A DNA stretch of 35,991 nucleotides from IMG/VR virus record IMGVR_UViG_3300030090_000803, positions 1 through 35,991 of that record; one strand, 5' to 3'. A program made the position numbers and the translations under genes. This document shows, in pieces, positions 1 to 30,100 of the stretch (position 1 is the stretch's first letter; each line of letters begins with the position of its first letter). The DNA is from a virus. Under the pieces are notes generated by a model that saw only the letters and a program-made list of their open reading frames with translations, was not told the origin of the DNA and did not search any database.

Positions 1-2055
1 CAAATCGCATTGCCGCGCGTGCCCACCTCTAATGTGTTTAAACATAAAAAAGACAAGTGGGTAAAAGCTGAATATCCTAAAGAGCTTAAGCGCATAAAAA
101 ATATATTCGACTGGAGAGATTACCCAGACGAACAAAAAGAAAAGTGGTACGACTATATTGACGAAGAGTTCAAGCGTAGAGACGAAGGCTTTTGGTTTAC
201 TAATAAAGGCGTGCCGACGTACATAACAGGTACACATTATATGTATCTGCAATGGAGCAAGATTGACGTTGGAGCTCCAGACTTTAGAGAGGCAAACAGA
301 CTATTCTTTATATTCTGGGAAGCTTGTAAAGCTGATAAGAGATGCTATGGAATGTGCTACCTTAAAAACCGTCGTTCAGGTTTCTCGTTTATGTCATCAG
401 CTGAAACAGTTAACTTAGCCACTATATCGAGTGATAGTAGATATGGGATACTCTCTAAGTCTGGTGCCGATGCAAAGAAAATGTTTACGGATAAGGTTGT
501 ACCCATAAGTATTAACTATCCGTTTTTCTTTAAACCGATACAAGACGGTATGGATCGTCCGAAATCGGAGTTAGCTTATAGGGTTCCGGCTAGTAAGTTT
601 ACTCGTAAGAAAATACAGAGTAACGAACAGCTTGAAGAAATAGTAGGTCTTGACACCACGATTGACTGGAAGAACACTGGCGACAATAGCTACGACGGTG
701 AAAAGCTAACTTTACTAGTGCATGATGAGAGTGGTAAGTGGGAGAGGCCTGACAACATATTAAACAACTGGCGAGTTACTAAAACCTGTTTAAGGCTAGG
801 TAGTAGAATCGTTGGTAAGTGCATGATGGGTAGTACCAGCAATGCGCTTGATAAAGGCGGGGATAACTTTAAAAAACTATACAATGATTCTGATGTCACA
901 CGACGAAATCGTAATGGACAAACAAAGTCTGGCTTGTATTCTCTCTTTGTCCCAATGGAATGGAACTATGAAGGATTTATTGACGAGTACGGAATTCCAG
1001 TCTTTAATAGTGGAGGTAATGATGAACGACTGGGACCAGACGGTGAATTAATAGACGTAGGTGTTATAGATCACTGGGAAAATGAAGCTGAAGGATTAAA
1101 AGACGATCAAGACGCATTAAACGAGTTTTACAGGCAGTTTCCTCGTACTGAAGAACACGCGTTTAGAGATGAGACTAAAAATAGTATATTTAATCTAATT
1201 AAAATATACGAACAGATTGATTACAATGAAGGAAGCAGACACACAGCTCCGTTCACTGTAGGAAGTTTTGGCTGGGTCAAAGGGATTAAAGACACTAAAG
1301 TTGTATTTAACCCTGATCCAACAGGTAGGTTTAAAGTTAGCTGGGTGCCTCCAGTTCATTTACAAAATAGGCAAATAACAAAAAATGGAATTAAATATCC
1401 CGGTAATGACCATGTTGGCGCCTTTGGTTGTGATAGTTATGATATCAGCGGCACGGTTGATGGTCGCGGTTCTAAGGGAGCTTTACACGGGTTAACAAAA
1501 TTTTCTATGGAAGACGCGCCGCCAAGCACGTTCTTCCTAGAGTACATAGCAAGACCACAGACCGCAGAGATGTTTTTTGAGGACGTTCTAATGGCATTAG
1601 TATTCTACGGGATGCCTTTGCTTGCGGAGAACAATAAACCTCGTCTATTGTATTATTTACGCCGTAGAGGTTACAGAGGATACAGTATGAATAGACCTGA
1701 CAAATCGTGGAATAAACTGTCGACAGCTGAAAAGGAGGTTGGCGGTATACCAAACTCAAGCGAAGATATTAAACAAGCGCACGCCGCTGCTATTGAAATG
1801 TACATACAAGAATATGTAGGTCATATTGGCGACGGTAATTACGGCACAGTGTATTTTAACGATCTGTTAAATGATTGGGCTAAGTTTGATATTAACAAAA
1901 GAACTAAACACGATGCGTCAATAAGCTCAGGTCTCGCAATAATGGCTTGTAACAGGCACTTATACGCACCTAACGCTAAAGTAGAAAAACAACCTTTGAA
2001 CTTGAATATATCGAAATACGACAACAAGGGGTTTAACTCCCAATTAATAAAGTAA
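1..2055 (+). CDS. terL: Terminase large subunit (5' partial)
   Basis: DNA-packaging motor: an N-terminal ATPase pumps DNA through the portal and a C-terminal RNase H-like nuclease cuts the concatemer. The frame is open to base 1 (CAA ATC GCA TTG); the first possible start inside the window is a TTG at 10, so the true start probably lies upstream and the gene is cut. Numbering from that TTG, an early stretch FWFTNKGVPTYITGTHYMY (about 63-80) is typical of Bacteroidota phage terminases. A deviant Walker A, LKNRRSGFS, is at 118-126, and Walker B LTLLVHDE at 233-240. The nuclease shows GAFGCDSYD with D475, ENN at 540-542 and HDAS with D635, spaced like the three acidic metal ligands. About 681 residues is normal for this subtype. 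The gene ends 3 bases before the portal gene. No small terminase subunit is visible. The family call is firm; the start is not known. Confidence 0.93.
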   Translation, partial: QIALPRVPTSNVFKHKKDKWVKAEYPKELKRIKNIFDWRDYPDEQKEKWYDYIDEEFKRRDEGFWFTNKGVPTYITGTHYMYLQWSKIDVGAPDFREANRLFFIFWEACKADKRCYGMCYLKNRRSGFSFMSSAETVNLATISSDSRYGILSKSGADAKKMFTDKVVPISINYPFFFKPIQDGMDRPKSELAYRVPASKFTRKKIQSNEQLEEIVGLDTTIDWKNTGDNSYDGEKLTLLVHDESGKWERPDNILNNWRVTKTCLRLGSRIVGKCMMGSTSNALDKGGDNFKKLYNDSDVTRRNRNGQTKSGLYSLFVPMEWNYEGFIDEYGIPVFNSGGNDERLGPDGELIDVGVIDHWENEAEGLKDDQDALNEFYRQFPRTEEHAFRDETKNSIFNLIKIYEQIDYNEGSRHTAPFTVGSFGWVKGIKDTKVVFNPDPTGRFKVSWVPPVHLQNRQITKNGIKYPGNDHVGAFGCDSYDISGTVDGRGSKGALHGLTKFSMEDAPPSTFFLEYIARPQTAEMFFEDVLMALVFYGMPLLAENNKPRLLYYLRRRGYRGYSMNRPDKSWNKLSTAEKEVGGIPNSSEDIKQAHAAAIEMYIQEYVGHIGDGNYGTVYFNDLLNDWAKFDINKRTKHDASISSGLAIMACNRHLYAPNAKVEKQPLNLNISKYDNKGFNSQLIK

Positions 2056-8923: not shown

Positions 8924-10387
8924 ATGGGATATTTAGACAACACATCAGATCAAGAATATTACCAGAGCGGAGACTATGGTGGTTATCAATTTATTTCGCT
9001 AGATGATATCATAAATCAATTCCAAATTATGTATGTTGGAGAAGAAAAGTTAATATCAAAAGCTAGACGCGCTGATATAGCTTTTCATGCTCAGCGAGCT
9101 CTTGCTGAACTTTCATTTGACACGTTTAAGTCGTTTAAATCACAACAAATTGACGTACCACCAAGTCTTACGATGATACTACCTCACGATTATGTAAATT
9201 ACACTAAGGTATCTTACGTAGATAGCGCTGGTATTAAACACCCAATATATCCTACTAAACATACGTCTAATCCTTTCCAAGTAGCTCAGGATTCAACTGG
9301 AAACTACATGTTTGAAGGAGATGGAGATCAAATACTACAGAACGGGGATTTTGAAGGTAACTTATTTGATCATTGGTATCCTGTAAAAGCCTTTGACTCA
9401 ACTACAACACCTCCAACACCTCTTGTCGCTATAAACAGCGGTGTTCTTGAGTTCACCCATATTTCACAGCAAGATATTGGAGATAATTATTACGGCGACG
9501 CTCTGCACGCTACTCAACAGCTTGATGTTAGCGGTATAGACTACTTAACTATATCTGCTGACGGCGTAGCAGCTACCGCGTCTGGGTCGCAAAGCACTGG
9601 TCAACTTAGATTTGGATTAAGCACTGGTAAAGGTGACAATAACACATACCCGCTTAATAACCCGCTTTTAAATCCAGCTGGAGCATCATTGAACGCTACA
9701 TCTGACGTAGACATATTCGATATAGCGTATTTAGAATGGATCGGGACAACTAGCACGCAGGAACAAGCGGCTATTGATGTGTCAGAATACGACACTATAT
9801 ATGCAATAGTTACTTCGTATATACCTTTAGGAGCTGCTAGTTTAGAAGCAAAAAACACTATAGATAATATTAAAGTGTTAAACACCATTGGCGGCGATGG
9901 AACTCTTATGGCAGAAAGCGGTAATGAAATATTTAGTTCAACTTGGAATAGTTACAAATCTACCACTATATCAGAAGACTCTATAGATGATTATAGATAC
10001 GAACAACACTGGTTAAATCCAAACGAAAGATATGGGCTTGATCCTACGTTTGCTAACATTAATGGTAATTTCTACATTGATGAAAGATTAGGTAGAATAC
10101 ACTTTTCGTCTAATATTAGCGGAAAAACTGTAATCTTAGATTATATAAGTGATAGTCTAGGTACAGACGCAGAAATGCAAGTACCAAAGCTTGCGGAAGA
10201 CGCCATGTATAAACATATGCTGTATGACATTATATCTACAAGGGCTAACGTAAACGGTGCGAGGCTTTCTTTCCATAAAAGAGAAAAGTTTGCAGCCGTA
10301 AGAAAAGCTAAACTAAGATTATCAAATATTAAGTTAGAAGAATTAACTCAAATTCTTAGAGGTCAATCTAAACACATAAAGCACTAA
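8924..10387 (+). CDS. Connector/tail-tubular-type protein with inserted jelly-roll domain
   Basis: Probable second neck protein joining head and nozzle (tail tubular protein A-like position). The core is split: residues 1-135 include the helical DIAFHAQRALAELSFDTFKS and LTMILPHDYVNYTKVSYVD, and residues about 324-487 include HWLNPNERYGLDP, FYIDERLGRIHFSS, TVILDYISDSLG and a helical basic end. Between them, about residues 136-322 form a separate beta-rich module beginning NGDFEGNLFDHW and ending TIDNIKVLN (I313-D-N), the opening and closing signatures of CBM4/9-like galactose-binding jelly rolls. The gene is 3 bases from the nozzle gene. The connector call rests on position and core pattern; the inserted module suggests that this neck carries a surface-exposed binding domain. 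Confidence 0.72.
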   Translation: MGYLDNTSDQEYYQSGDYGGYQFISLDDIINQFQIMYVGEEKLISKARRADIAFHAQRALAELSFDTFKSFKSQQIDVPPSLTMILPHDYVNYTKVSYVDSAGIKHPIYPTKHTSNPFQVAQDSTGNYMFEGDGDQILQNGDFEGNLFDHWYPVKAFDSTTTPPTPLVAINSGVLEFTHISQQDIGDNYYGDALHATQQLDVSGIDYLTISADGVAATASGSQSTGQLRFGLSTGKGDNNTYPLNNPLLNPAGASLNATSDVDIFDIAYLEWIGTTSTQEQAAIDVSEYDTIYAIVTSYIPLGAASLEAKNTIDNIKVLNTIGGDGTLMAESGNEIFSSTWNSYKSTTISEDSIDDYRYEQHWLNPNERYGLDPTFANINGNFYIDERLGRIHFSSNISGKTVILDYISDSLGTDAEMQVPKLAEDAMYKHMLYDIISTRANVNGARLSFHKREKFAAVRKAKLRLSNIKLEELTQILRGQSKHIKH

Positions 10388-10390
10388 TTC

Positions 10391-13300
10391 ATGCCGGAAA
10401 TTAAAAATACTTTTAGTCAAGGTAAAATGAATAAAGACCTTGACGAAAGGTTACTACCTAATGGACAATACCGTCACGCTCTCAACGTAGATATTACTTC
10501 GTCTGAAGATTCTAATGCTGGTGTTATAAAAAACATACCAGGCAATATACAGATGAGTGGAATAGCGTCTGCTACGAGTCAACGTTGCGTTGGTAGTATT
10601 TCCGACGAGCGTAATAATAAATTATATTGGTTTACACACTCTGACGCATATGATGGTATCTTTGAATTTAATCAAATTACAGAAGAGTCAAGGTGTGTAT
10701 TGGTAGATAAGCTTTTTACTGTGCTAAAGTTTAGCGGCGCGCAAATAACTGGTATAAATATTATAGATGACTTTTTGTTTTTTACTGACGGTTTTAACGA
10801 GCCTAAAAAAATAAACATATCAAAAAAATATCATGAAGACGACACTATTGATGCGGTGTCTCAAACTCACGCTAGATTATTTATTGACGATATAGATAAA
10901 GGTGAACTTCAAGAAAGGCACGTTACCGTTATTAAAATTAAACCAAGTAACGCACCTACTATAAAAACAAATAAAGCTGAAAATGAAAAGCAAGCTATAT
11001 TTGAAAAAGTATTTCCTAGGTTTTGCTTTAGATATAAATATGATGATGGGCAGTACTCGGCATTTGGACCTTTTACAGAAGTTGTTTTTAATGCTGATTA
11101 TCCCAATGAAATAAATAGTCAAAACTCTTATTTTACAGGGGAGCCTTATAATAAAGCGATGACAAACTTAATATCGTCGGTTGAAGTTTATGACTTTGTG
11201 CCGTCTGATATTCCTGAAGACGTAGTCCAAGTAGATATTCTATATAAGCAAGAGGACTCTAATGTAGTGTACTCTGTAAAAAATATTAAATACACTGATG
11301 ACGCTTGGTCAGAACCCGGGTCTAATCAATTTAATAATTTGTCAAACACAAATTTTAAGGGTAAGTATGTAATCTCTTCAGAAAATATACACGCAGCGCT
11401 CCCTGAAAATCAACTACTACGACCATTTGACACCGTCCCTAAAAGCGCTTTAGCTCAGGAAATTATAGGTAATAGACTTGTTTATGGAAACTATAAATTA
11501 GGTTATGACTTTGATGGATTAACACCAGGTGTAGACGCTAATTATGTTTTACGAAACTCTCAAAACTTTTTAGAAGGAGGTTTAAAATCTATAAAGTCAC
11601 TAAGAAGTTATCAACTAGGCGTAGTCTTAGGTGATAAGTATGGTAGAGAAACACCTGTTTTTACGTCTGATGAAGCTGGTATAAATATACGCTGGGATGG
11701 ACCTTACGGTAAGAATGCTAGTAAGTCATTTATGTTTGAGGCAAATATAAACCAAGATTTACCTTCATGGGCTGACTATTATAAATTCTATGTTAAGTCT
11801 GCATCAAGTGAGTATTATAATTTAATCATGGATAAATCGTACTTCCCGTTTACAAACACGGAGTATGAAAATCCTGAAAACCATATGTACGTTTCTTTCC
11901 CATCGTCAGATAGAAATAAGATTATGGAAGATGATTATATTATTGCTAAAAAAATATACGATGGATCAGGCTCTCAAGTATTGCTTAATAACAGATATAA
12001 AATTCTAGACATAAGCAATGAGGCTCCTGACGCTGTAAAGTATATATTCCAAAACTTAGGTACGGCTAGTAATAACACAGACAATTTACTTTGTAATTCA
12101 ACTCCAGCAACAACCCCGTCTTTATTTATAAATCCTAACAACGGCAGTAGTGGTAGTGCTGGTCTTAGAATTGATCAGGAAACAGACACGGTGCATTTTA
12201 ATAAAACAGTTTGGGAAGGCGCTGGAAATAATGGAGGTATTAATGGTGGCGTGCTAATAGATCCCGACGCAACTGAAGACGTTGAAAATTTATACATATC
12301 GTGGAACCGCGACAGCGCGTACTCTGAGCGCTATAAAGTTTCAAGCGCTAGACTTTCGAGTAGTAACGTATACGTATTAAAACTAGGTAAGAAAATATCT
12401 AATAAAGACGCAAAGCTAGCAGCTCTTGGTGGTACAATAGATACGGGTAATCCGCTTACAGAAACTCTACTGCATCCTAATCTTAATTTTAAGGTAGAAA
12501 AAAGAACAGAAAGAAACCAAGAAGATTTTAGCGGTAAGTTTTTTGTTAAAATACAATACGCACCTTATTTAACAGGGTTTAATATAGATGAAGACGCTAT
12601 ATACCCGACTTCAGTCCATAGCACTAATTGGTTGTTTGACGTTCACGAGGCATTCATGGCCAATGGAGGTGATCCGTCTGATGGTGCTGTAAACTCTCAA
12701 TCGGACGGGCAAGATATGAATGGTATGTCTACGGCCGCTAGTATTGCTGGCGTAACTGGATTTTGTACTACAGAACCGGAGTGGGAGGCCGTATTACAAG
12801 AAATTGGTCGTACATTCTTTATAGACGACATGTATCACGCTGGTTGCAATACTAAAACTACAAACGAAGAGTGGTTTGCTAAAGAATCAGGAGCAGGGCA
12901 GAGAGGCAACAGTTTTGCTCACAAGCCATTGGTTTGGAATTCATACACCCAGCAAGATAACTCTCAAGATGGTCCTATGGGTATTAATAGCTCAGTTAAC
13001 TGGGATGTGTCTGGCTGGGGACTTGTAGCACAAGATATAGATAGCAACTTGGACAGTGTGACGCCTAGACCCAGTATTGTAAACTTCAGCTACGAGCCGC
13101 CGGAATACGTCCACAACAATGCGGTTAACTCTATGGAGGGTATTATAACAACTACAAACTATCACACAGGTTACGAGACAGACTCCCTTCCAAACTACTT
13201 TAATTATGGTTATAGAGCTTGGAGAAACACTTTATATGCAACAGGTGCTTACAATGATGGACCAGAGATTTCTGTTCCTTCACACTACGACACAACATAC

Positions 13301-16300
13301 GGAAATCTTAACGAAACCGGCAAGTACTTTATACACATATCGTTTTTAGCGCCTGGTCAAGATCTTCACGATGGATCTGGCTTTCCCACTAACCTTAATA
13401 ACGTAGCGATACAAGGACCTAACGGTATAGGTAATTATTTGCAAGGAATTTATGGCGGCGGGGTGTTTAATAAAATATGGAATCGTCCAGCTGCGCCTAG
13501 CGGATCAGCATATGGGCAGTATGTTGCAGGTGAAAATAACTTAACTTTTGGTAATTCAGGTTTAAAGTACGTAGAATTTGAAGGCGCTTATCACAACGAT
13601 AACGTAGATAGCTTTGCTAGTACTCCACCTGGATTTTTTGAAGATAACGCTCTTTCTATAGGTTATGATCAAGAGTACCGCACTCGACATAGAACTCAAT
13701 GGGATCCTTGGATTGATGAAAATGGAATTGAAGACGAGTTGCTTCATGCTTTTTGTAATCAACTATCAACTCCTGGGCAAAAATTTAGGTTTTCTAATGA
13801 TTCAACTGGCACCGTATTTACCATATTAAAGTCAACCACAAAACACATATACAATCACACTACGTGGAGGATGAGATGGCGATGGGATCATGAAGAAAAT
13901 AGCTATGAAAGGCCTTTTACTAGCGTCGAGGAGCGTGCCAGCCAATGGGCTAATAACGCTAATCACTTAGGTATTCCAAACCATGGAGGTACAGCAAATA
14001 ACTTGATAAATAAAATAGTTGATTTTGGTAGAGCAAACAACAGAAGAACATGCTACATAATTGAGGTTGATATAGATCCACAGGCGGCAGGTGTGTATGA
14101 CCCTAGATCAAATCACGGAGCACTTTCAACAGAAGTTGGTGATATAGAATTTATATCAGAAGTAGCTCCGTCTATTATTGATTCTCAATTTAGTTATCCT
14201 ACTTTATGGGAAACAGAGCCTCAGCAACTGGCTGATTTAAATATATATTTTGAAGCTAGTAGCAATATTCCTACAATAATTACGGAGCAAAGTAAAGAAC
14301 TTTTCGCGCCCGCGGGTTGTAGTGTGTCTCTAGACTTAAACGTAAATATTAACGAATATCCAGAGTACGTTACTTTAGCTCAGTGGTCTGATTTAGCTAT
14401 AGAAATAACACCTGGTTTACCATTAGTCGATGTTGATGACAACGATATAGATTACACTGGCACTGTAGTTACGTTTACTAGAGCAGACGGTAGTTACACT
14501 AAAGCTAGAATCATTGATGACGTAGATCAAGAAGGAGATTTAAAGTATTTATTCCACATACAACTAGATCCATCTTTAAACACGGGGCTTAGTTGGTATA
14601 ATTGTTTTTCTTTTGGTGACGGAATAGAATCAAATAGAATACGCGACGGGTTTAATAAAATGCAAATAGCTAGTGGCGCTAGAGCTTCCGCTACGCTAGA
14701 AGAACCATTTAACGAAGAGCATAGAACTAATAGCCTTATATACTCTGGCTTATACAATTCTAATTCTGCGTTAAATAACCTTAATCAGTTTATTGCAGCT
14801 GAAAAAATTACTAAAGATTTAAATCCTACATATGGTGATATACAAAAACTATTTACACGAAGCACTGATCTTGTAGCGTTTTGTGAGGATAGAGTATTAA
14901 AAATATTAGGTAATAAAGACGCGTTATTTAATGCTGATGGTAATCCTCAGTTAGTTAGTACTAACGCAGTGCTAGGTCAAGCAGTTCCTTTTGTAGGTGA
15001 CTATGGTATATCTAAAAACCCAGAGTCTTTTGCAAAAGATGCTTATAGAGCTTATTTTACAGACAAGCAAAGAGGAGCTGTGTTGAGACTTTCTATGGAC
15101 GGTCTTACGCCTATATCTGACGCTGGCATGAGAGATTACTTTAGAGATAACTTAGTAGAAAACGCTGAGTTTATCGGTAGCTTTGACAACTATAATAAAC
15201 ATTATAATCTTACTATAAAACCAGGTGTTGATCCAGGGGAAGTTATCTTAGAAGAAGAATTTAACGAAGGCGTTGTTACAGAGGAGATAGTGACGGTAAC
15301 TGATGTGATAGAAAACGGTTCTTTTACTGAAGGTGAAGAGTCTGATGTATACCACACGATAGCAGAAATAAGCGACCCAAATCCTCTTCCACCAAATCCT
15401 CTTTACAATACAAACCTTGATTCTAGTACGAATTTAATTATTCACCCCGCAGTGCCTGTTGAGTCTATTCAAACAGCGATCACGGATCAACCTGGTCAAC
15501 AGGCTCTTGGTTTCTTTTATGGAGCTGGCGCGACTGTACCAGAAAAAACTCATTTTGCATTAGACAATAGCGTTTGGGGTGATACAGGTATGAACGTTTG
15601 GAGCGATGGTGCTGGTGGTGCCGTTGCTGGTACTACTAGATTTGTCACGTGGAGATATAGAAATAAAGCTATTGAAAATCAAACACTCAACACTGCTGTC
15701 TATACGCCAGCAGAAAATGACGACAACATAAATGGATCGTTAAATACAGCTTGGTACAATTACGCTGATGGTGTTTATCCAGGTCCTAAAGTACTAGATA
15801 ATGATGTAAGTTGTGCTCAGTTCTGGGACTTGGGAGCACAAGTATATGTTGAAACGGAAGGCAAAACAATTACGCCAACATCCGATACTTCACCATATGT
15901 TATGCACAACTCGTATCACGTCAGTACTACGCATAAAGGTATAACGTTTAGAGGAACTCCTAATAATGGCGTATTTGGAGGTATTAGATTTCCATGGAGT
16001 TTTTTAGAGCCACCAGAGCTGAATGATATACTTGGGTCTGGTATAAGTAGTAACGTACCTGACAATGTGCTTGAGGAGTATCCTAACGCAACTGATATGA
16101 CTGTTTTCAATGGAGAGGAGCTTCAGTTGACGATAAAGTTTAAAGCTAACGCTTATGGTTGGTATACTAAAAGTTACGCTAGTATTATACTGCGTGATGG
16201 TACTGCAAACATGGATGCTAGTTTGCTTCTTGATCCCGAGCCAGTAGAAGAGTATGGAGGCGGTAATCCTGCTTTGCAGCCGTTTACCCAGTTTTCAGGA

Positions 16301-18922
16301 AACCAAGACTCTGATGCAACACCGTGGCCAAACGGTGTACACCTTAATACTGATGATTTTGAAGAAGGCACTTGGGAAAATGACGATGAAGAGTTTGTTG
16401 TAAAACGTCATTTTAAAATAGTCGACACAAGTATTACTGATAGTAATGGAAACGTAACGACAGGTATTGCTATTAATAACTTTAATGTTGCAGTTAGTAT
16501 AAGATCAGGCGAACTACCTTATCAAGGTGATTTTGTAATTGGCGAAACTGGGTGGGTTACTGATGGAGGCCAAACCTACTGGACAGGTGAAACTTTAGGC
16601 GCACAAGGCGAAATTGTTATTACAGAAATACGTTTAGAGAAAATACATAAGATGTTCCACCCAGGTCAAGAGTTTATTGCTTCTGGAAATCAACCATCAA
16701 TACCTGAAGAAGCTATTGGTGCTTGGGTTGAGGTTCAGCATAACGCGCCTGAAAATGTGACTGGGCAAAATGTAAATTTAACATATGGAAACGAGTTGCT
16801 CTATGGCGCTGAAAACCCTGGAACAGTAGTCACCGGCGTGGACAATAGCGGTGTTGAGTATAGTTACGTTACCGGAACATCAAACACAAACGCTAACGGT
16901 GAATTAATACACCCTAGTAACGAAAATCTTGATATTGATTGGCCATCGGTACCCGTGTATCCAGAACCAGCAGCGTCAATTACAGAAACCGTTAACGGTG
17001 CTAATAGCTTGGTTAAGCTAAATCAAACCCCAAATGCTTACTTGAATCTTAGTATGAGCCAAGATTTTATATTAGATCATTGGTATTTAGTTGACGTAAC
17101 CACTACAGAGCCACTCCAAGGAACTTTGCGTATCCCTGCCGTCGCCTCGAATGTTGGTGTTACTGGATATGATACATACGGGTCAGGTGGACTTGGTACT
17201 ATTTACGAGATGTCCAATCATAAAGGATTTGAGTTTACTACTATTGACCCTGAACTACCGATGGAATATGATCCAGCTTTAATTAACGGTACTGGCGATT
17301 TAAATATCAGTAGAGTTTTATTTAGATACAGACAAGGCTCCTCGCACTATCAAGACAACTATACCAACATCATTATACAGCGTGTTGATTCTTCGCAGCA
17401 AGCAGAAATTAGAAGCGTAAATGTTCTTGACGTTACAGATAATAACTTTATTACAGCTACTGCTAGCGGATGGGCTCACAACGGAAACCAAGTTCCAGCG
17501 CCAAGAGCTATAGTTAATGGCGCACAAAACACGGGTTACACTTTACCTTACTCTTACAAGAAAGACGGTAAGGTACACTTGGATGTAAGAAGTACTAGTA
17601 TAGGGGAAGGCATTAAGGTCTGCCGTCAAAACGTAACTGAAATTTTTGAAGCCGTACCAAGTGATGGTACAAACTATCAAGTAAATTTTAGTTTGTCAGA
17701 AAACTGGCTAGGAGAGTACAATGTTAATCAAGGAAATGGTCTTAGCGTGCAATGGTATCACAACATAGATGGAGGAAACACGTTTGACCTGATGCAATAT
17801 GTTACTGGTGATCCTGGCGACTATAGCTTTACTCTTCCAGAAAGCCCCGAGCTATTTAATAGTTCTAATTTAAGATTTTTTGTGTCGAGTGGTGATGATA
17901 CTGTCTGCGCCATAGACAATGTTAGTCTAATGCAGACTGTAATAACGTTTGATCCTGGTAACGCTGGCGCCTGGGTAATAAGTGGTTTTAATCAAACGCT
18001 GTACGATTACGTAACTTGGAATGATGGTGCTATAGAGTTTAACGAAGCTCCAAATTTTTCTACGATTTCACAAGCTGTTGAACTAGAAGAAGGCGCCACA
18101 TACGAGATATCCTTCGACATGTCTGGAGATATTGACGGTACTTTAACTGTTTCATACTTTAATTTAGAAGGCGTAGGGTTTCATCATTATGTCAATAACA
18201 TATCTGAAGAAGGTCACGTAAGCTTTTTAGCAACAGTTGGTAGCCAAACAAGCACAAACGAAGAATATGGTATGTGGGGTTCTTTTAGATTACACTCAGG
18301 TTTTGCATTAGAAACTTTCACTGGAATTATAGATAACGTAGCAATAAGAAGAATATACCAGCTAAATGATATTGACACACATGAGCAAACAATAACGTTT
18401 AGCGAAGATGTTAAAGGTTGGGTAAGTTTTAAATCGTTTATACCAGAAAACGCACTTAGTCTTTCTAGCGATTATTACACTGTAAGAACCGGTAGGCTTT
18501 ATAAGCACAACATGCCTTTAGAGGATGTTGATAGAAACACTTTTTATGGCGCATACGAGTCTTCTGTAGTTACAGCAATATTAAATCAACAGCCATCTAG
18601 TATTAAAAACTTTAAAAATATAAGCTACGAGGGTTCTCAGTCTAGAATACTTGAGTATGACTCATACGACTCTATTGACGAAAATGGAAACCTATTGGTT
18701 TTATCTAATGCTTCAACTTATAATTTGACTGATAAACTCGGTTGGTACAATGAATCAATAATAACAGATCAACAAGAAGGTCGTATACTAGAGTTTCTTG
18801 AAAAAGAAGGAAAGTGGTTTAACTATATTTCTGGAGATGCGCAAAGTATTGTAGACTTAGATGTGTCTAAATTTAACCTGCAGGGCTTAGGTGTTGTATT
18901 AAACAGTATTGAAAATGGATAA
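10391..18922 (+). CDS. Giant tail nozzle-type protein with adhesin-like insertions
   Basis: The 2843-residue product is read as the tail nozzle, a role comparable to T7 gp12 or P22 gp10, which have a beta-propeller-like body. The N-terminus has GKMNKDLDERLLPNGQY and ALNVDITSSEDS, widespread in crAss-like and related phages. Core segments follow: FSGKFFVKIQYAPY near 715, PTLWETEPQQLADLNIYFEA near 1275-1295, LNQFIAAEKITKDLNPTYGD near 1460-1480, AYRAYFTDKQRGAVLRLSMD near 1553-1572 and GSFDNYNKHYNLTI ending near 1608. The core resumes at about 2664 with VKGWVSFKSFIPENALSL and continues to the end. The intervening roughly 1050 residues are beta-rich modules, at least two ending in the jelly-roll signature IDNV (I2508, I2647). 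No cleavage site or membrane segment is seen. It overlaps the next gene by 8 bases. The nozzle role is inferred; the conserved structural family is recognised with good confidence. Confidence 0.78.
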   Translation: MPEIKNTFSQGKMNKDLDERLLPNGQYRHALNVDITSSEDSNAGVIKNIPGNIQMSGIASATSQRCVGSISDERNNKLYWFTHSDAYDGIFEFNQITEESRCVLVDKLFTVLKFSGAQITGINIIDDFLFFTDGFNEPKKINISKKYHEDDTIDAVSQTHARLFIDDIDKGELQERHVTVIKIKPSNAPTIKTNKAENEKQAIFEKVFPRFCFRYKYDDGQYSAFGPFTEVVFNADYPNEINSQNSYFTGEPYNKAMTNLISSVEVYDFVPSDIPEDVVQVDILYKQEDSNVVYSVKNIKYTDDAWSEPGSNQFNNLSNTNFKGKYVISSENIHAALPENQLLRPFDTVPKSALAQEIIGNRLVYGNYKLGYDFDGLTPGVDANYVLRNSQNFLEGGLKSIKSLRSYQLGVVLGDKYGRETPVFTSDEAGINIRWDGPYGKNASKSFMFEANINQDLPSWADYYKFYVKSASSEYYNLIMDKSYFPFTNTEYENPENHMYVSFPSSDRNKIMEDDYIIAKKIYDGSGSQVLLNNRYKILDISNEAPDAVKYIFQNLGTASNNTDNLLCNSTPATTPSLFINPNNGSSGSAGLRIDQETDTVHFNKTVWEGAGNNGGINGGVLIDPDATEDVENLYISWNRDSAYSERYKVSSARLSSSNVYVLKLGKKISNKDAKLAALGGTIDTGNPLTETLLHPNLNFKVEKRTERNQEDFSGKFFVKIQYAPYLTGFNIDEDAIYPTSVHSTNWLFDVHEAFMANGGDPSDGAVNSQSDGQDMNGMSTAASIAGVTGFCTTEPEWEAVLQEIGRTFFIDDMYHAGCNTKTTNEEWFAKESGAGQRGNSFAHKPLVWNSYTQQDNSQDGPMGINSSVNWDVSGWGLVAQDIDSNLDSVTPRPSIVNFSYEPPEYVHNNAVNSMEGIITTTNYHTGYETDSLPNYFNYGYRAWRNTLYATGAYNDGPEISVPSHYDTTYGNLNETGKYFIHISFLAPGQDLHDGSGFPTNLNNVAIQGPNGIGNYLQGIYGGGVFNKIWNRPAAPSGSAYGQYVAGENNLTFGNSGLKYVEFEGAYHNDNVDSFASTPPGFFEDNALSIGYDQEYRTRHRTQWDPWIDENGIEDELLHAFCNQLSTPGQKFRFSNDSTGTVFTILKSTTKHIYNHTTWRMRWRWDHEENSYERPFTSVEERASQWANNANHLGIPNHGGTANNLINKIVDFGRANNRRTCYIIEVDIDPQAAGVYDPRSNHGALSTEVGDIEFISEVAPSIIDSQFSYPTLWETEPQQLADLNIYFEASSNIPTIITEQSKELFAPAGCSVSLDLNVNINEYPEYVTLAQWSDLAIEITPGLPLVDVDDNDIDYTGTVVTFTRADGSYTKARIIDDVDQEGDLKYLFHIQLDPSLNTGLSWYNCFSFGDGIESNRIRDGFNKMQIASGARASATLEEPFNEEHRTNSLIYSGLYNSNSALNNLNQFIAAEKITKDLNPTYGDIQKLFTRSTDLVAFCEDRVLKILGNKDALFNADGNPQLVSTNAVLGQAVPFVGDYGISKNPESFAKDAYRAYFTDKQRGAVLRLSMDGLTPISDAGMRDYFRDNLVENAEFIGSFDNYNKHYNLTIKPGVDPGEVILEEEFNEGVVTEEIVTVTDVIENGSFTEGEESDVYHTIAEISDPNPLPPNPLYNTNLDSSTNLIIHPAVPVESIQTAITDQPGQQALGFFYGAGATVPEKTHFALDNSVWGDTGMNVWSDGAGGAVAGTTRFVTWRYRNKAIENQTLNTAVYTPAENDDNINGSLNTAWYNYADGVYPGPKVLDNDVSCAQFWDLGAQVYVETEGKTITPTSDTSPYVMHNSYHVSTTHKGITFRGTPNNGVFGGIRFPWSFLEPPELNDILGSGISSNVPDNVLEEYPNATDMTVFNGEELQLTIKFKANAYGWYTKSYASIILRDGTANMDASLLLDPEPVEEYGGGNPALQPFTQFSGNQDSDATPWPNGVHLNTDDFEEGTWENDDEEFVVKRHFKIVDTSITDSNGNVTTGIAINNFNVAVSIRSGELPYQGDFVIGETGWVTDGGQTYWTGETLGAQGEIVITEIRLEKIHKMFHPGQEFIASGNQPSIPEEAIGAWVEVQHNAPENVTGQNVNLTYGNELLYGAENPGTVVTGVDNSGVEYSYVTGTSNTNANGELIHPSNENLDIDWPSVPVYPEPAASITETVNGANSLVKLNQTPNAYLNLSMSQDFILDHWYLVDVTTTEPLQGTLRIPAVASNVGVTGYDTYGSGGLGTIYEMSNHKGFEFTTIDPELPMEYDPALINGTGDLNISRVLFRYRQGSSHYQDNYTNIIIQRVDSSQQAEIRSVNVLDVTDNNFITATASGWAHNGNQVPAPRAIVNGAQNTGYTLPYSYKKDGKVHLDVRSTSIGEGIKVCRQNVTEIFEAVPSDGTNYQVNFSLSENWLGEYNVNQGNGLSVQWYHNIDGGNTFDLMQYVTGDPGDYSFTLPESPELFNSSNLRFFVSSGDDTVCAIDNVSLMQTVITFDPGNAGAWVISGFNQTLYDYVTWNDGAIEFNEAPNFSTISQAVELEEGATYEISFDMSGDIDGTLTVSYFNLEGVGFHHYVNNISEEGHVSFLATVGSQTSTNEEYGMWGSFRLHSGFALETFTGIIDNVAIRRIYQLNDIDTHEQTITFSEDVKGWVSFKSFIPENALSLSSDYYTVRTGRLYKHNMPLEDVDRNTFYGAYESSVVTAILNQQPSSIKNFKNISYEGSQSRILEYDSYDSIDENGNLLVLSNASTYNLTDKLGWYNESIITDQQEGRILEFLEKEGKWFNYISGDAQSIVDLDVSKFNLQGLGVVLNSIENG

Positions 18923-20120
18923 ATTTATTAATTCAGTTGGTGTTTCACGTGGCGATATATCAAAGCAGGGTGAAACTAGACCTTTAACAATATACGGTTC
19001 TAATAACGCTGATTTTATATTGCAAATAGTTAGTAGCGAGGGTAAATTTTATAACTTTACAACTAACGCTTTTACTGAAACAACGCACACTCCACAAAAT
19101 AAATTTTCAGCATCTTTAAATGGAGATACTTTTATAAAAACTATAAAATTTCCATCTGTTACATCAGAAACTACATACAATATAATTGTCATACCTGATC
19201 ATACGAAAGGAGTTAAAACAAGATTAACCGGTGGTGTTTCTAATATTTCTTTAACGCAAGTGGTAGATGTTACGTTAACTTTTGGTTTTATAACATCTTC
19301 GGCAAGCAACTACAATGCAACACCTCCAGCAGCGAACATAACTACAGTTGGCTCGCCTCTGCAGAAAGGTTCAACTACTGTTAGCGTATCTAAAACAGTA
19401 ACAAACGCAGCTACTGATAACAATGGTCATGGATTAAGATTAACGTCATTCCCCACTGATTCAAGTATTGTCTTTAGAAAAGATACTACGTTAAGTGGTA
19501 CTACTAGCTCGTCAACAATTTTAGAGGTTGCTAGCGCTGCTGATTTAGCTGTTGGAATGTATTTAATTGTTGGACCAAATTTATCTGGTACTCCTCAAAT
19601 ATCATCTATAAGTGGAACTAAGATCGAGCTTACGACGGCTCAAACTCTTAACTCAGATGGCGCAACATTAACTTTTGAGGCCAGAGGTGCTAAGTCTATA
19701 TACAGCGCAATAGGAGTCGGTATTAGCAGCGTAAAGCTTAAAGTCGAGATACCAAGCACAGGCGAAGTAACATCCACTGTTAGAGGCGCTATAAGTAATA
19801 GCACCACAATAACGCTTAATGGCACGTATGGTATAGCGGGAGGTAACTTTGTTACATATGACGGAGCTGGAGTAGATAGTAGTACGGCTAACGCGGTTAC
19901 TTCAGTAACAGATAGAGGCGGCGGTAATCCACCTACTACTCTAGGTGAAATTGTAGTTCAAAAAGCACAAACACTTTCTGATGGAACTCCTTTGACATTC
20001 AAAGGCTCTACTACAGCGGTTAATATAGTAGGAACTTTTGATATAAATTATTTTGGAACATCAGATAGAACGATTAGTTTAGACTTAGATAAATTTATAA
20101 CAGTAGGAGCTGCATCATGA
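18915..20120 (+). CDS. Tail fibre-like beta-rich structural protein
   Basis: Product of 401 residues from the ATG at 18915. An in-frame TTG two codons earlier is less likely, because the ATG overlaps the nozzle stop by 8 bases in the usual coupled way. Residues 1-110 (DKFINSVGVSRGDISKQG, then TFIKTIKFPSVT and TYNIIVIPD) look like a virion-attachment domain. The rest is Ser/Thr/Gly-rich beta structure with a repeated unit: ELTTAQTLNSDGATLTFEA near 238-256 and IVVQKAQTLSDGTPLTFKG near 346-364. This composition is typical of fibres, spikes or nozzle-decorating proteins. No lyase or chaperone motif is visible. It overlaps the next gene by ATGA, so the two are probably translated together. Exact role unknown. 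Confidence 0.7.
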   Translation: MDKFINSVGVSRGDISKQGETRPLTIYGSNNADFILQIVSSEGKFYNFTTNAFTETTHTPQNKFSASLNGDTFIKTIKFPSVTSETTYNIIVIPDHTKGVKTRLTGGVSNISLTQVVDVTLTFGFITSSASNYNATPPAANITTVGSPLQKGSTTVSVSKTVTNAATDNNGHGLRLTSFPTDSSIVFRKDTTLSGTTSSSTILEVASAADLAVGMYLIVGPNLSGTPQISSISGTKIELTTAQTLNSDGATLTFEARGAKSIYSAIGVGISSVKLKVEIPSTGEVTSTVRGAISNSTTITLNGTYGIAGGNFVTYDGAGVDSSTANAVTSVTDRGGGNPPTTLGEIVVQKAQTLSDGTPLTFKGSTTAVNIVGTFDINYFGTSDRTISLDLDKFITVGAAS

Positions 20121-20470
20121 TAATAAACTTAACATCAAACATAGACAATGCTTCATTACAGGTGGGAGACCAGGCTGTGTGGGTAAGCATATATGATCAA
20201 ACTTCTGATATATCTGGAAACGTAACGGGTGGCGGTGACTATACAAGTTTTGTTAGTGCGGGTACTATAACAGCTATAGGTTCTAACTACGTGGAAACAG
20301 ACGGTGGTAACTTACCACCTGCTAACTCTTTTTTAATGTTTCATAAACCTGATCAAGTTAATAACGTTGGTTTAAAGGGTTATTTTGCGGAAGTAACACT
20401 TAAAAATAACTCAAGAGAAGATGCTGAGCTATATGCTTTAAGCTCTGAAGTAGTTGAAAGTAGTAAATAA
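20117..20470 (+). CDS. Small beta-rich virion-type protein, unknown
   Basis: Product of 117 residues starting in an ATGA overlap with the fibre-like gene, so translationally coupled to it. The sequence is soluble and beta-rich: LQVGDQAVWVSIYD at the start, GTITAIGSNYVETDGGNLPP in the middle, and KGYFAEVTLKNNSREDAELYALS near the end. The last segment resembles the close of small phage structural proteins that stress strands exposed to solvent. No signal peptide, membrane segment or catalytic residues are apparent. Position between fibre-like and ejection genes suggests a minor tail component. I do not recognise a named family. Confidence 0.72.
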   Translation: MIINLTSNIDNASLQVGDQAVWVSIYDQTSDISGNVTGGGDYTSFVSAGTITAIGSNYVETDGGNLPPANSFLMFHKPDQVNNVGLKGYFAEVTLKNNSREDAELYALSSEVVESSK

Positions 20471-20515: not shown

Positions 20516-20932
20516 ATGAGTGATTTAGTAAAGTTTAGAACATTTAAAGATGGAGACTATGATCTTTGTTGTGAATGGTGGAAATCTTGGTGGGGAAAAG
20601 CAGGTCCAGTACCAGAAGCATATCTACCGCCGAGAGGTAGATGTTATATGATTGAAATGAACGGCAAACCCGTTGCGGCAAGTTTTTTATATGCTGACGA
20701 GCTGATGGGTTATTTGACGTGGACAATATCAGATCCTGAATATAGAGAAACTAATAGAAAAAAATTAATAGAATTACTTATTACAAAAATACAAGAGGAC
20801 GCAAGAGATACTTGGGGAGTTAAGTTTATACTTACAGTATGCGGTAATAAGCACCTGGAGAAAATACATAGAAAATTAGACTGGTATGTAGAGGACTCGA
20901 GTCCTGCGTACGAGTGTTTTAAATACTTATAA
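20516..20932 (+). CDS. GNAT-like N-acetyltransferase
   Basis: Product of 138 residues with the layout of the GNAT fold: an N-terminal strand-helix (VKFRTFKDGDYDLCCEWWKS), a central strand pair CYMIEMNGKPVAASFLY, strand LTWTISDPEYR, a long helix (KKLIELLITKIQEDA), strand KFILTVCGN, and a final helix-strand HLEKIHRKLDWYVED ending YECFKYL. The acetyl-CoA pyrophosphate-loop consensus (Q/R-x-x-G-x-G/A) is not clear after the fourth strand; PEYRETNRK sits there instead, so the cofactor site may be degenerate. It lies alone behind a 45-base gap in the structural block, just before the ejection genes. A substrate cannot be read from the sequence; modification of a virion protein, a host protein or a small molecule are all possible. 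Fold confidence is moderate. Confidence 0.65.
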   Translation: MSDLVKFRTFKDGDYDLCCEWWKSWWGKAGPVPEAYLPPRGRCYMIEMNGKPVAASFLYADELMGYLTWTISDPEYRETNRKKLIELLITKIQEDARDTWGVKFILTVCGNKHLEKIHRKLDWYVEDSSPAYECFKYL

Positions 20933-24105: not shown

Positions 24106-27100
24106 ATGGACGAATTAAAAAAACTATATGACGTTGTCGTTAGAGAAGGCAAGTATACAAAATCGTTTGAGGAGTTTCAACAACAATACCAAGATCCTAA
24201 TTATCAAAAAAAGGTTTTTGATGTTGTTAGTAGAGATGGTTTATACACTAAAGATTTTAACTCATTTACCGCTAAATACGCGGGAAAGCCACAAGGTGCT
24301 GCCGGGACCGATGCGACAGCAGCACCAGTTATGGGTTTACCATCGGAAAGTTCTTTTTCGGCATCGTCGCCAATCATTAGCCATATAAAAAACGAAGAGT
24401 TTGACGACATTCTAGGCTCAACCACGAGAGCGTTTGATGAATCAGGAGGACTTACGGGAGGTGTGCTTATGGGGAGCTGGAGTGAAAAAGACGTTAGAGA
24501 AAGACTTGCGAAACACTATGGCGAAGATAAGTTTAGCTTTGAAGAAGTTCAGGCGGGTACAGATGCTATAGAAATAAGAAATAAAAAAACTGGAGCTAAA
24601 AAGGTTTTTAACCTCAACTCTACTTGGAATATTAGTAACAATTTTGACACCCTTGATGAGATATATGGATCAGACATGGGTAATCTTGACAGGGTTGCTA
24701 AGTATAGAGAGGACGGTGGATTTCTTGGGGTAACTCTGCCTGAAATACAAAAGTGGATGGACGAGAGCTATGGTGCTGATGTAACTAAAACTGAAATACA
24801 AACTCAACAAATAGGACAGCTTTTTAAAAGCAAACTTGAGGATCCAGAGTTTATGAAAAACGCTTTAGGTTCAGACGCAGAAAACTTTAGATGGATATTA
24901 CCAACTGACTACGGCGGTAAAGGAGGTAGAGGTGATGAAGACGACTACAAAGAGTTAAGTAAAAAACTCAAGGACCTTGTTATGGAAAGAGGTTGGATTT
25001 GGAATGAGATGAATGAACAGTACGGTAACTTAGATGAAACAGATATTGAGTATATTATAGAAGATGCTGTAACAGAAAAGTTTTACGAGGCCAGTGCGGA
25101 GTACGCTCAAGAGCAAAAAGATCTTTTAGCTTTCAACATAGAAGATCAGGGCACTACTATTGACGAAGTTTACAAAAACCACGAAAACTTTAAAGTAGAG
25201 TCTTTAAGCGCTAAAGAGCGTAAGTACTATGACGCTATGAAGAAGTACGAGGCTATGCGTGACAAGGAAGGAGCTTACTCAGGAGGAGTATCTCAGGAAG
25301 AACTTGACGCACAGTTGGCAAGGGTTAAGGAAGCGAAGGAAGGTTATCAAAATTGGTGGAATCAAACTAAAGATCTTATAGATCTTGAGACGGGTAAACC
25401 AATAAGCGCCTTAACGGAATCTACCGCCGCTTTTGAGGTAAACTACGAAGATACAAAAGATTTACTAGAGGATCAAGTTGGAGCAGCCATGGACGCTGAC
25501 GAAAGCTTAACGTACGACGAGGCTTTAGAAAAAGTATTTAACGAAAACGGAGCTGCGCTATGGTCTCACGAATTGGAAGGTAAGAAAAAGTTTAAAGTTG
25601 TAATAAATTCTAATGACGTAATTGAGTGGCTAAGGGATGTAAAAGGCATCAAATCTGTAGGTGAAACTAAAAACGGGTATATTTACGACATGTCTCTTGC
25701 GGATCTAGCTGCTAACTATGACTACATGGTTAAGAGTGATGGCTGGGGTATTAGAGGTTGGCAAGATTTTAGATCTGGTCTTAAAGGTAGTCCCGTGGCT
25801 GGGGCGGTAGATTGGGGTGTGGCAATTCAGCGCGAAGGTGATTTTGTAGGACCGGATCGCTCTGGTGAATTTGATTCGCCAGAGGGGTATTTTGGTCTAT
25901 TAGAAGAAGACGAGAATACTGACTTTGGGTTTTCAGAAAACTGGATAGCAAAGCGAGCTCAACAATGGTGGTACGACGAGGAAGAGTTCGGTGACTTTGA
26001 CGATAGATCTCAAGGCTTTAAAAGAATGCTCAAAGATTACCGTGACGACCTGCGTGAGTTACAGAGACGTGATGTCACTTTATCTAGGATGCATTTACTT
26101 AACGAAGACGTTAGCACTGGCAATACTGCAAGAAAGTATTTAGGTAGAGGAGCTGAAATGATGTACGAAGGGTTTGGTGGTATTTTTGGTCTTGATACTT
26201 ACGTAGACGCAGAGTATATAAGCACGCGAACTCAAACAGACGTATTGCAAGGTATAGTAGATGAGGGGCTTTTAGAGGAGACAGAGCAGATGAAAGAAGG
26301 TTTTAAGCGTAGTGGCGCTCTGAAAACCTACGAAGGTGTAGTTGGGTTTGTGCCAGCAATAACTGAGTTTGCTTTAATTGAAGTTGCTGGTAAAAAAATA
26401 GGTATTGTTACTGGTATACCTAATCTTATAAAAAATCTAAACAAAGGTTACAAAACAGCAAAAGGCGTTAAATTAACTGGTCAAGCACTTAGATCTGAAA
26501 GAGTTGCTGGCGTAGGTATGCAATCTGGTAAGATGTTAAAATACGGAGATGAAGGTTTTGACGCGGCTTGGGTTGCTAGTGCTGGTGGTACGGTTACAAA
26601 GTCTAATTTAGCAAAAGGCTTACACTTTGCGTATATGTCCGCGTGGGAAGAGGCGAAAATGGCTAAAGCGTTTGATGAGGACTACCACATGGGAGGTGGT
26701 ACGGCTTTCTATGGCACTGGTATGCTATTGAACAAGTTGATCCCTTTAACGTCAAGATACGCTAGACTAAATGAAATTATAAAGATTGGTAGATCAGGTG
26801 TGGCAGGTGCTGTATCTACGCAGAGTGCAAAGGCTTTAGAAGCTCTTGTAGATGATTTAAGAGGAAACAAAACATTTGGTAAGTTTGTAGACGAAAACTA
26901 CTCTGAGTTAGGCGAGCTTGGGCAAGACGCACTAATAGACTTCTTTGTGTTTTCTCTTGTAGGTGCTAAAGGGCATGTTGGCAAGGGAATTGAGGGTGGA
27001 GCATATAAACTATCAGGCGGTAGAATAGGTAGAAGAAATCCACTGTGGATGAGCTATCAAAAACTACATAAACTAGAGCGTCAAATACCAGCTATACTTA

Positions 27101-30100
27101 GGAGAAAGAAGTCTCAAATGGAAGCGGATCCTGATAATAAAAAGCTACAACAAGAGTACGATACATATCTTGAGTTATATCAAGGCGTAAGCGGTAAGCT
27201 TAGAGAAATGGACAACTGGGCTGATTGGAACGATCCAGAAAGAGCTAAAGCTATGCTAGAGAGATCTGGCAGAAATATGGCTGAGGTATTTAACGAAATG
27301 GGTATTAAGGTTAATTACGAAGCTACTGGAGAAAGGAACAATGAAAACGGTTCGTCTAAATTTAAGTTTGAAGACTCTTCTGCCGAGTTTCAAAAACAAG
27401 CTGATGGATCTTATAAGGTTTTAGTAGACACTACTAGAATGAAGCCTGGTAAAATGCCTCACGAGGTATTCCACTTAGGTATGAAGACATTGTTCGACGC
27501 CAACCCCGCGGTTTTAAACAACTTTAAATCAACTATAGAAGGTGCTTTCAAAGGCGTTAAATTTTTTAAAGTCCCTGTAAAAGATAACAAAGGTGAGTTG
27601 ACTGGGGAGAAGAAAGACATGACACTAGAAGAGTTGGTTATGAACGAGCACGGCCGTCAAGCTAACTTTGATAATATTAAAGCTAATGAGTTTTTAGCTT
27701 ACGTTACCGAAGTGTTATCTAACACAAAGCACTATAATAAGTTTATTAAAAACGATACTTTTAATAGAATTAAGCAAGACGTAAACTTGTTTACACAAAG
27801 ACAGTTTGGTAAAACAGCTTTTGAAGGACCTACGTTTAAGCAAGAGGTTATTGATTTTATGGGTAACTTCTCTAGGTCAGTTAAAGCAGGTACACTTACT
27901 AGAAAGCAAGTGCAGGTATTTAAAACACTAGCTGAAAAGGGTAACTGGATGGAAGGTACTGAGGCTGACTTAAGAACAGAAGAGTCTAGAGATATGGCTG
28001 AGATGGAAACATTAAGCTCTAAAGATCTTAAAGAAGTTAACCAGACAGAAAAAGACAATAAAAGAATTGATACAGAGCTTGAAAACTACCACAGAAACAA
28101 TTTAGAAGGTAAAGAAAATATTACCTTAGACGATTTGAAAGAACTTCAGGGTCAAAAAAGAAGAGGTCCAGGTTATGATATTGACATGGAATCTCCATAT
28201 ACAGACTTTGAAAAATACCCAGTTCTTGGCAATGTTTTAGGTAGAGCTTTTGACCAAGCTGTAAACATGTATCAGCGTAATATACCTGAAAGATATAGGA
28301 TTAACTTAAATGACAGGGGTTACGAAAGCGAAAGAACTGAGTTAGCGAACGAGGTTTTATCTAATAAAAAGCGTGGACTACTTGACATCGTGCGTAGATA
28401 CGATCCTAACAACGAGCAGGGAGCTACTTTAAAAAGCTGGATAACAGGTCAACTGCGCACAAGAATGCAAGAGCTTAAAGGTGGAAGCGTAGATAAGAAG
28501 TACGAGTCTCGAGCTGCAGAAGCAGAGGGAGTAGTTGTGTCTGGAACAGACATATCTGAAATAAATATGGATCTGATCGATCCAACTAAAGGAGGTGGTA
28601 TAGATAAAACAGCTGATAGAGCTGGTGTAAACGAAAAAACAAAAGGCATAAAACTAAAAGATCATAAGTTTGAGTTTGAAGGTGGTGTTAAAAGAGCTAT
28701 AAATCCAGAGTCTGTAAAAAGAACTTCAGAAGCTGGTGAAAAAGTGTTTAACGAAACGCCTTTGAATGACTTAACGTTTATGGGTGTTGCTACTCGTATG
28801 CGTGAGTCGGCAATGAATGAGATGGATCTTTTGTTTAGAAACGGTAAAGAGCTTAGTAAACCTAAAGAAATACAAGAAGTTGAAAAACGTTTTACAGATA
28901 ATGTAAACAACGCCGCGGTGTTATACGACGCTATGCCAGAGTTTTCACACCCTAAGCATTATGAAAACACTCAGTGGGGTAAAACAGTGTTTAAAGTTTT
29001 CTATGAAAAAACCGGTGAGAAATTTAAGTCAACTGACTTACCAGTAGAGTTAACTAAGAAAACAAACGCTAGAACTGAGAAGTATAGGAAGCTACCGGCT
29101 ACACCAGAGCGTATACAGGAGTTTATAGAATTAATGAACACTGGTAGAGATGCTGGCGTAAAGAATAAAAAACGTGCAACGCTAAAGCAAGGTGTTGGTG
29201 ATATCTTTACTACGCAGACGTTTAGAGACATGCTTAATAATCCTGAGTTTATTGAAAGGGCGGAGTCAACGCCTGAAGGTAAAGCTAAACTAGAGGGATT
29301 AAAAGCTGAACTTGCAATGCGTAAACTTCGTGGAGCTACACCAGAAGCAATGGCGTCTAAAGATGTGGAATTAATAGAAGACTTTATTCCAGAGGTTAAA
29401 AACATTGATTGGGAAAGATCTAAAGATCCGGCGCTTGACATGATGCGCTTGCTAGATCGCAACCCTGAAATTGTTCGTATACTAGAGCAAAATGGAAGCA
29501 GTACTAAAGGCTTTATAGCGGATATGGGCCATAAGGTTACTCGTTTCACACAAAAAGCGTTTAACAAGTTTGCAGCAGGAGCTAGAAGATTAGGGCTTAC
29601 TACACTAGCGTCTTATACGCCAAAGATTTTTGACGGCGGCTTTAAGGGTACGAAAGGAAAGCTCGGTGTTAAGCAAGGTGTTTTAGATTTTTTCAAAGAA
29701 AACATGGAGCCCGAGGTGTTTGAACAATTTGAGAAGGAGCTAAACATCGATGTAGACATGGCGAAGCGAACAGCTGACCCTAAGTTTTCTCGGGAATTTG
29801 TAGAAGAATTTTTGCCGGACTTTTTCAGCACGTTTGATGCTGGGATGCTCGAGTTTCACAACGGGATATTCCGCTATACCACGGGTGAAGGAACTGAAAG
29901 ACCGGGTTTTAGAGAATTAGTTGATTACATTCCTAATAAAGCGCTCAACGGTATGAGCAATAAGGAGTTAATAAAGCTTGCTAATGAAATTTCTAAAGGT
30001 CCTAAAGGTGACAAACGAGTTAAAGAGCTAAGCGCAGAACTAAAGAAAGCTGGTAAAGAAAACGCTAAAATTAAAAGCAACTTAATTAAAGCCATAAAAA

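Follow-up and report, generated by a model that had tools for sequence, protein, structure and literature searches.

The muzzle, a hexamer that combines a propeller with two Ig-like domains and a crass fold, is the proposed gate and contact point of crassvirus-type phages. Its propeller part is the one called nozzle in the T7 counterpart, its crass domain has been proposed as a surface sensor that triggers opening, and the length variation among muzzles has been described as insertions into the regions of the crass and IG2 domains, not into a propeller hairpin (PMC10172136). In the case of p-crAssphage, a separate tail or spike protein carries tandem repeats of BACON domains, fast-evolving domains of the carbohydrate-binding type for which attachment to the host surface has been proposed (PMC10136315).

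The stretch of DNA analysed here (hereafter the window; 35,991 nucleotides, IMG/VR record IMGVR_UViG_3300030090_000803) belongs to an uncultured crAssphage-like virus and carries terminase, portal, capsid and ring genes, together with a muzzle gene that is split by a very long insertion. Nucleotide coordinates given below are window positions unless a contig is named; the genes of the muzzle, of the tail ring protein and of the 117-aa muzzle end are on the plus strand.

Results

The open reading frame at 10391-18922 stays open over 2843 codons, and its product, P0001 (2843 aa), is by its sequence matches a muzzle (tail-tip) protein of the crassvirus type. It is matched by PHROG 14478, a family of virion proteins (E 4e-127), its residues 2714-2815 (18530-18835) match the Pfam domain crAss_MUZ_C (PF25729; 35.1 bits, with a cut-off of 27), and a profile of its insert-less relatives aligns with crAss001 gp44 over 216 columns (hhalign probability 95.0%, E 3.9e-8, gp44 residues 1054-1280). 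A plain phmmer search of the PDB gave no match, and sequence-profile searches of the PDB gave none beyond a histone H1 entry (E 0.72), which was dismissed as a chance hit.

One beta-hairpin of the P0001 propeller core is split by a segment of 1,056 residues (1610-2665; 15218-18385), which was located by aligning the core to related muzzle proteins. The core before it ends with GSFDNYNKHYNLTI at residue 1609 and the core after it starts with QTITFSEDVKGW at residue 2666, close to the limits that the initial annotation had read from the letters (1608 and 2672), the second of them moving because QTITFSEDVKGW begins about six residues before VKGW. The other landmarks of that reading are also in place, with the strand EIVITEIRLEKI at 2074-2085 and IDNV-type endings at CAIDNVSL (from 2506) and TGIIDNVAI (from 2644). 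In insert-less relatives, the empty site reads ..GSYDDRNDEYNITL-TVSFKEDVKGWVSF.., that is, the two strands of the hairpin, a plain example being EYNITL..TVSFKED, and in a profile alignment its equivalent in crAss001 gp44 (VYFTYKD-HCLCYSE, near residue 1200) is a short turn. Both structural models of the region predict strands at EFIGSFDN (1593-1600) and KHYNLTI (1603-1609), which directly precede the insert (15167-15217) and are kept in insert-less homologues, and at TITFSE after it, where QTITFSEDVKGW (2666-2677; 18386-18421) starts the next strand (model residues 1115-1120) and where separate reading frames start in phi18:3 and MW202828. On the basis of sequence and predicted strands, EFIGSFDN, KHYNLTI, TITFSE and then GWVSFKSF were taken for strands A to D of a single blade; judging by the homologues, one more propeller blade seems to follow it.

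Homologues were gathered from IMG/VR by way of three parts of the protein (the N-terminal core, the C-terminal core and the conserved stretch just ahead of the insert), and each ORF was measured for the gap that separates the block with its end at 1608 from the one that resumes at 2667. Among 143 distinct related muzzle ORFs this gap is two-peaked: 64 of them have -2 to about 40 residues, 68 have 900-1403 and the other 11 have 50-900 (the boundaries are BLAST ends, and single values may err by some residues). The expectation that the two blocks lie close together in homologues is borne out by those 64 ORFs, and a gap that runs from -2 to 1403, with insert-less relatives on record, agrees with an insertion into one loop of a tail-body protein and not with a segment of the same length in all homologues. 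The insertion is therefore real, large and variable, and its site is new in a known tail-tip protein; no description of it was found in the open-licence papers searched.

Two close relatives, L003 and L006, with 60% identity over residues 1-403, lack the insert (gaps of 11 and 12 aa). In a tree of the flanking core, with the insert left out, 48 of the 49 long-insert rows fall in one clade of 54 (SH-aLRT 95), which also holds five insert-less rows (L003, L006, L023, L075 and L092) and L024. On an enlarged tree of 139 rows, the minimum is 9 changes for the long state and 14 overall, counts that do not separate gains from losses; the long insert has thus been gained or lost repeatedly, which implies that the phage can do without one. 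With the insert as query, tblastn gave no match among the cultured phages in the collection, and a short-peptide-pattern search of IMG/VR found no insert relatives, because the insert diverges too fast; the relatives came through the flanking core. The homology of the inserts rests on BLAST and HMM matches, and the overall identity of about 26% between the P0001 insert and its relatives was dropped as evidence, as shuffled sequences give 23-27%.

In other lineages the same muzzle site holds unrelated inserts (L154, L099, L157, L234 and L115). That of the cultured Cellulophaga phage phi18:3 carries a Big_9/cadherin-like domain (E 2.8e-20) in 501 aa; gp114 stops after it and gp115 begins with MPKTITYSEKNKGW, which is strand C, and GenBank records MS/MS detection for the products of both genes. 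The muzzle ORF of MW202828 ends 352 aa beyond the site and is followed by a 183-aa ORF annotated as a putative glycosidase and then by an ORF beginning MEHTLSYDDGVKGW. Since the chain is broken at the site in both cases, this loop tolerates even a chain break.

The N-terminal part of the muzzle varies too. In five contigs (L151, L112, L145, L158 and L095) the muzzle ORF begins no earlier than about query residue 1357, so that a separate ORF seems to hold the N-terminal part. The muzzle of Maribacter phage Panino (L168, 5838-5949) is broken in the conserved core, from about query residue 1490 to 1532, with some core missing, possibly by an intron or a frameshift. Several insert-less ORFs (L107, L160, L159, L041 and others) have 700-1250 extra residues after the C-terminal core instead.

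The last part of the muzzle is also encoded apart in the window, where a 117-aa ORF (20117-20470) is homologous to the C-terminal end of one-piece muzzles by blastp (phi18:3 gp115, E 6e-7; phi38:1, 8e-5; and the fused muzzle ORFs L112, L063 and L140), and PHROG 18548 covers both muzzle pieces. This end is fused in phi38:1, elemoF and some contigs, and in the window the two pieces are separated by a 403-aa ORF of unknown function (18909-20120). Adjacent to the muzzle, on its upstream side, an R1-like tail ring protein (487 aa; 8924-10387; PHROG 13977) has an insert of its own of about 195 aa near residues 136-330, and the corresponding gap is -12 to 11 in about 50 homologues and 144-450 in the remainder, most of which have 144-293. 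This insert, with its motifs ILQNGDFEGNLFDHW and NTIDNIKVL, is like a single CBM-type jelly roll; it has no match in Pfam, and L003 and L006 keep it yet lack the muzzle insert. Further downstream, a 138-aa protein encoded among tail genes (20516-20932) has a weak acetyltransferase (GNAT) match, just above the cut-off (E 9.9e-5), and an ORF of MW202828 in a similar place is annotated as an acetyltransferase subunit. A 3187-aa ORF (24106-33669) has no PHROGs or Pfam match at useful E-values.

Structural models of the window insert (P0001 1552-2720, where model residue i is 1551+i) and of the shortened insert of L024 reached medium confidence, with mean pLDDT of 55.7 and 62.6. The best-modelled part of the former is the body of domain D5 (residues 2520-2655, ending TGIIDNVAIRRI; 17948-18355), where most 10-residue blocks have pLDDT of 72-86 and which matches the xylan-binding CBM 4mgs (Z 9.6, 119 aligned residues). 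The body of D4 precedes it (residues 2351-2515, ending CAIDNVSLMQ; 17441-17935) and is its paralogue (hhalign 98.1%, E 5e-13); the same test found no link of D2 or D3 with D4 or D5. With VIA-align, both models match CBM4, CBM16, CBM22, hyaluronan-binding and MAM domains over their whole extent, with Z of 10-12.7 over 125-150 residues and rmsd of 2.6-4.0; middling Z values are common with this tool (7 to 8 is given in its notes as the best value by chance), so that a jelly-roll fold is likely rather than certain. On these medium-confidence models, D4 and D5 have the beta-sandwich jelly roll of CBM4/16/22 and are likely domains of that type. The jelly-roll-like modules expected from the sequence, as opposed to continuous nozzle core, have thus been recovered by structure prediction and fold search for D4 and D5, the better-modelled domains; the first part of the innermost module (about 1694-1890) is modelled too poorly for a fold, and no fold is assigned to that module or to D3. 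A Pfam scan of the insert gave no CBM family, its best match being GalBD_like (E 0.011, 16.2 bits, with a cut-off of 26); five further inserts and the long-insert relatives had no Pfam match at cut-off except phi18:3, and BACON was not found among 25 inserts at E up to 1. The top Foldseek matches, to multi-domain toxins and enzymes, were set aside as domain-level likeness (TM-score about 0.1) and not kinship.

Nearly all long inserts open with three motifs of the jelly-roll first-strand type within about 80 residues, and the bodies of D3, D4 and D5 then come in the reverse order. Opener a (EVILEEEFNEG, 1617-1627; 15239-15271), the motif present in nearly all of them, is likely the first strand of the outermost domain, D5, opener b (VTDVIENGSFTEG, 1636-1648; 15296-15334) that of D4, and opener c (LYNTNLDSSTNLIIHPAVP, 1671-1689; 15401-15457) that of D3, whose body (residues 2104-2350; 16700-17440) bears the conserved motifs AWAEVxH and WYxVD. 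The innermost module, about residues 1694-2103 (15470-16699), lies between this opener and this body and contains a better-modelled beta domain near 1885-2085. Opener b together with D4 (82-86..965-969 of the window model) matches whole CBM4/16/22 domains; in the L024 model, opener a with D5 (63..634) matches whole CBM4 and CBM16 domains, and opener b with D4 (80..477) a whole CBM22. The strand pairing is read from these match ranges alone, and that of opener c with D3 from the order of the motifs, not from a model.

Natural variants fit such an arrangement. In L024, profile positions 89-571 are gone and 5-88 and 572-1039 are kept; in L182, L185 and L197, opener c leads almost straight into the D3 body and exactly the innermost module is missing; and L135 has two openers and two closing motifs. 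From the models, the domains of the insert appear to be nested one inside another, with an innermost module that is exchangeable and sometimes absent. What had been described as an adhesin array grown into one loop holds as regards the loop, and less so as regards a simple array, as the evidence favours nested domains.

Replacement of this module is seen in one group of relatives. L118 and L119 are mostly 77-98% identical elsewhere and drop to 26-48% in most 60-residue windows over L118 residues about 1680-2040, a block across which L118 and L124 are 81-95% identical. Within the block 1657-2091, 187 informative sites join L118 with L124 and 8 join it with L119, as compared with 81 and 263 outside it, and none of 10000 permutations reached the observed block score. 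Transferred to P0001, the ends of the exchanged block come to lie at residues 1688 and 2124, close to opener c and to where the D3 body begins, so that the block falls on the innermost module. As L118 and L124 agree throughout, L119, which is known from one contig only, is probably the lineage with the replaced module, and its block has its closest relatives in L028 and L088 (47-49%). In the pair L022 and L101 the greatest difference likewise lies inside the innermost part of the insert. In close pairs, the dN of the insert exceeds that of the neighbouring propeller several-fold (0.43 versus 0.02 for L086/L088, 0.05 versus 0.00 for L012/L013). In all pairs with measurable divergence, dN/dS is below 1, and dS varies too, so relaxed constraint is also possible for the insert.

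Discussion

The best explanation overall, and one that we consider fairly probable, is that the insert is a nested jelly-roll adhesin module in the B-C hairpin of the muzzle. The muzzle, a hexameric gate at the tail tip, would have taken up an accessory module between strands B and C of its penultimate blade, in which D4 would interrupt D5 after the first strand of the latter, D3 would in turn interrupt D4, and the innermost module of about 400 residues would interrupt D3. In beta-propellers, the B-C loops and the connections between blades lie on the same face. As domain IG1 of crAss001, carried by one of these connections, sits distally, the insert should project distally too, probably with its innermost part at the tip, and the hexamer would surround the tail tip with six such modules. 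This module would most likely act as an adhesin for host-envelope glycans, which its distal domains would bind, docking the tip near the gate, with the innermost module carrying much of the specificity, and it may add reach and specificity to the sensing proposed for the crass domain. Some relatives lack the set, others have a part or the whole of it, and its innermost piece is swapped among them, a pattern to be expected if the module touches the host surface.

The jelly-roll fold, the predicted position, the fast divergence and the exchange of a cassette make recognition of the host surface the explanation that we prefer. The module could instead stabilise or cap the tail tip, mask the phage, or stick loosely to extracellular polysaccharide or particles: a jelly roll by itself is no proof of binding, the ring protein has an insert too, which suggests a general decoration of the tail, and relatives without the insert exist. 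Recognition accounts better than a mechanical function for the fast divergence and for an exchange limited to the innermost module, and we regard these other roles as rather unlikely. As for the architecture, the same adhesin-like module could be made of tandem jelly rolls, the three N-terminal motifs being linker strands that the models mis-assign. The bodies of D4 and D5 each start with a possible first strand of their own (NNFITATASGW and FDPGNAGAW), D5 is also matched without opener a (at 972..1104), and the models have only medium confidence; however, two models of different sequences agree on the far-apart first strands, and the natural deletions and replacements sit between opener c and the D3 body, as nesting predicts, which leaves the tandem arrangement unlikely. 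Finally, an artefact of metagenome assembly or recombinant contigs is very improbable: the long-insert sequences all come from uncultured contigs, and the cultured phages of the collection offer no match to the insert, but dozens of contigs, which come from many samples, have homologous inserts within long, unbroken ORFs, and the 81-95% likeness of L118 and L124 through the exchanged block argues that it is not a copied contig.

Returning to a nested adhesin module, it may tentatively be proposed, though as somewhat less than an even prospect, that it grew by repeated insertion into a recognition mast, each new jelly roll having been inserted behind the first strand of the one before it, so that the array would extend outward from a loop of the tail gate while the cassette at its tip is exchanged or lost and the outer shells stay undisturbed. 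If this were the case, binding at the tip could couple directly to the gate. The nesting, if right, shows how a tail protein can exchange the domain that makes the outermost contact and keep its gate machinery fixed. In any case, the natural versions of the muzzle (lacking the insert, lacking the innermost module, or with the whole set) make the role of each layer testable.

Among described systems, the closest is the crAss001 muzzle, gp44 (Bayfield et al. 2023, PMC10172136), a homologous tail-tip protein with the same Pfam C-terminal domain family as P0001 and a comparable neighbourhood of portal, capsid and ring genes; its hairpin has a turn of a few residues where P0001 has 1,056, and its domain IG1, on a between-blade connection, lies below the propeller towards the cell. 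Phage phi18:3 (Pachyviridae; gp114/gp115) also has a long insertion at the same muzzle site, whereas its content is unrelated to that of P0001 and the chain ends after the insert, with strand C in the next ORF. As regards the fold, CBM4, CBM16, CBM22, CBM29, the hyaluronan-binding domain 4d0q and MAM domains resemble the modelled D4 and D5, with sequence identities of 6-20% and no family match at cut-off, and differ from the domains of P0001 in that the latter are seemingly nested. The P0001 insert resembles the BACON-repeat protein of p-crAssphage in its fast-evolving domains, apparently of the carbohydrate-binding type.
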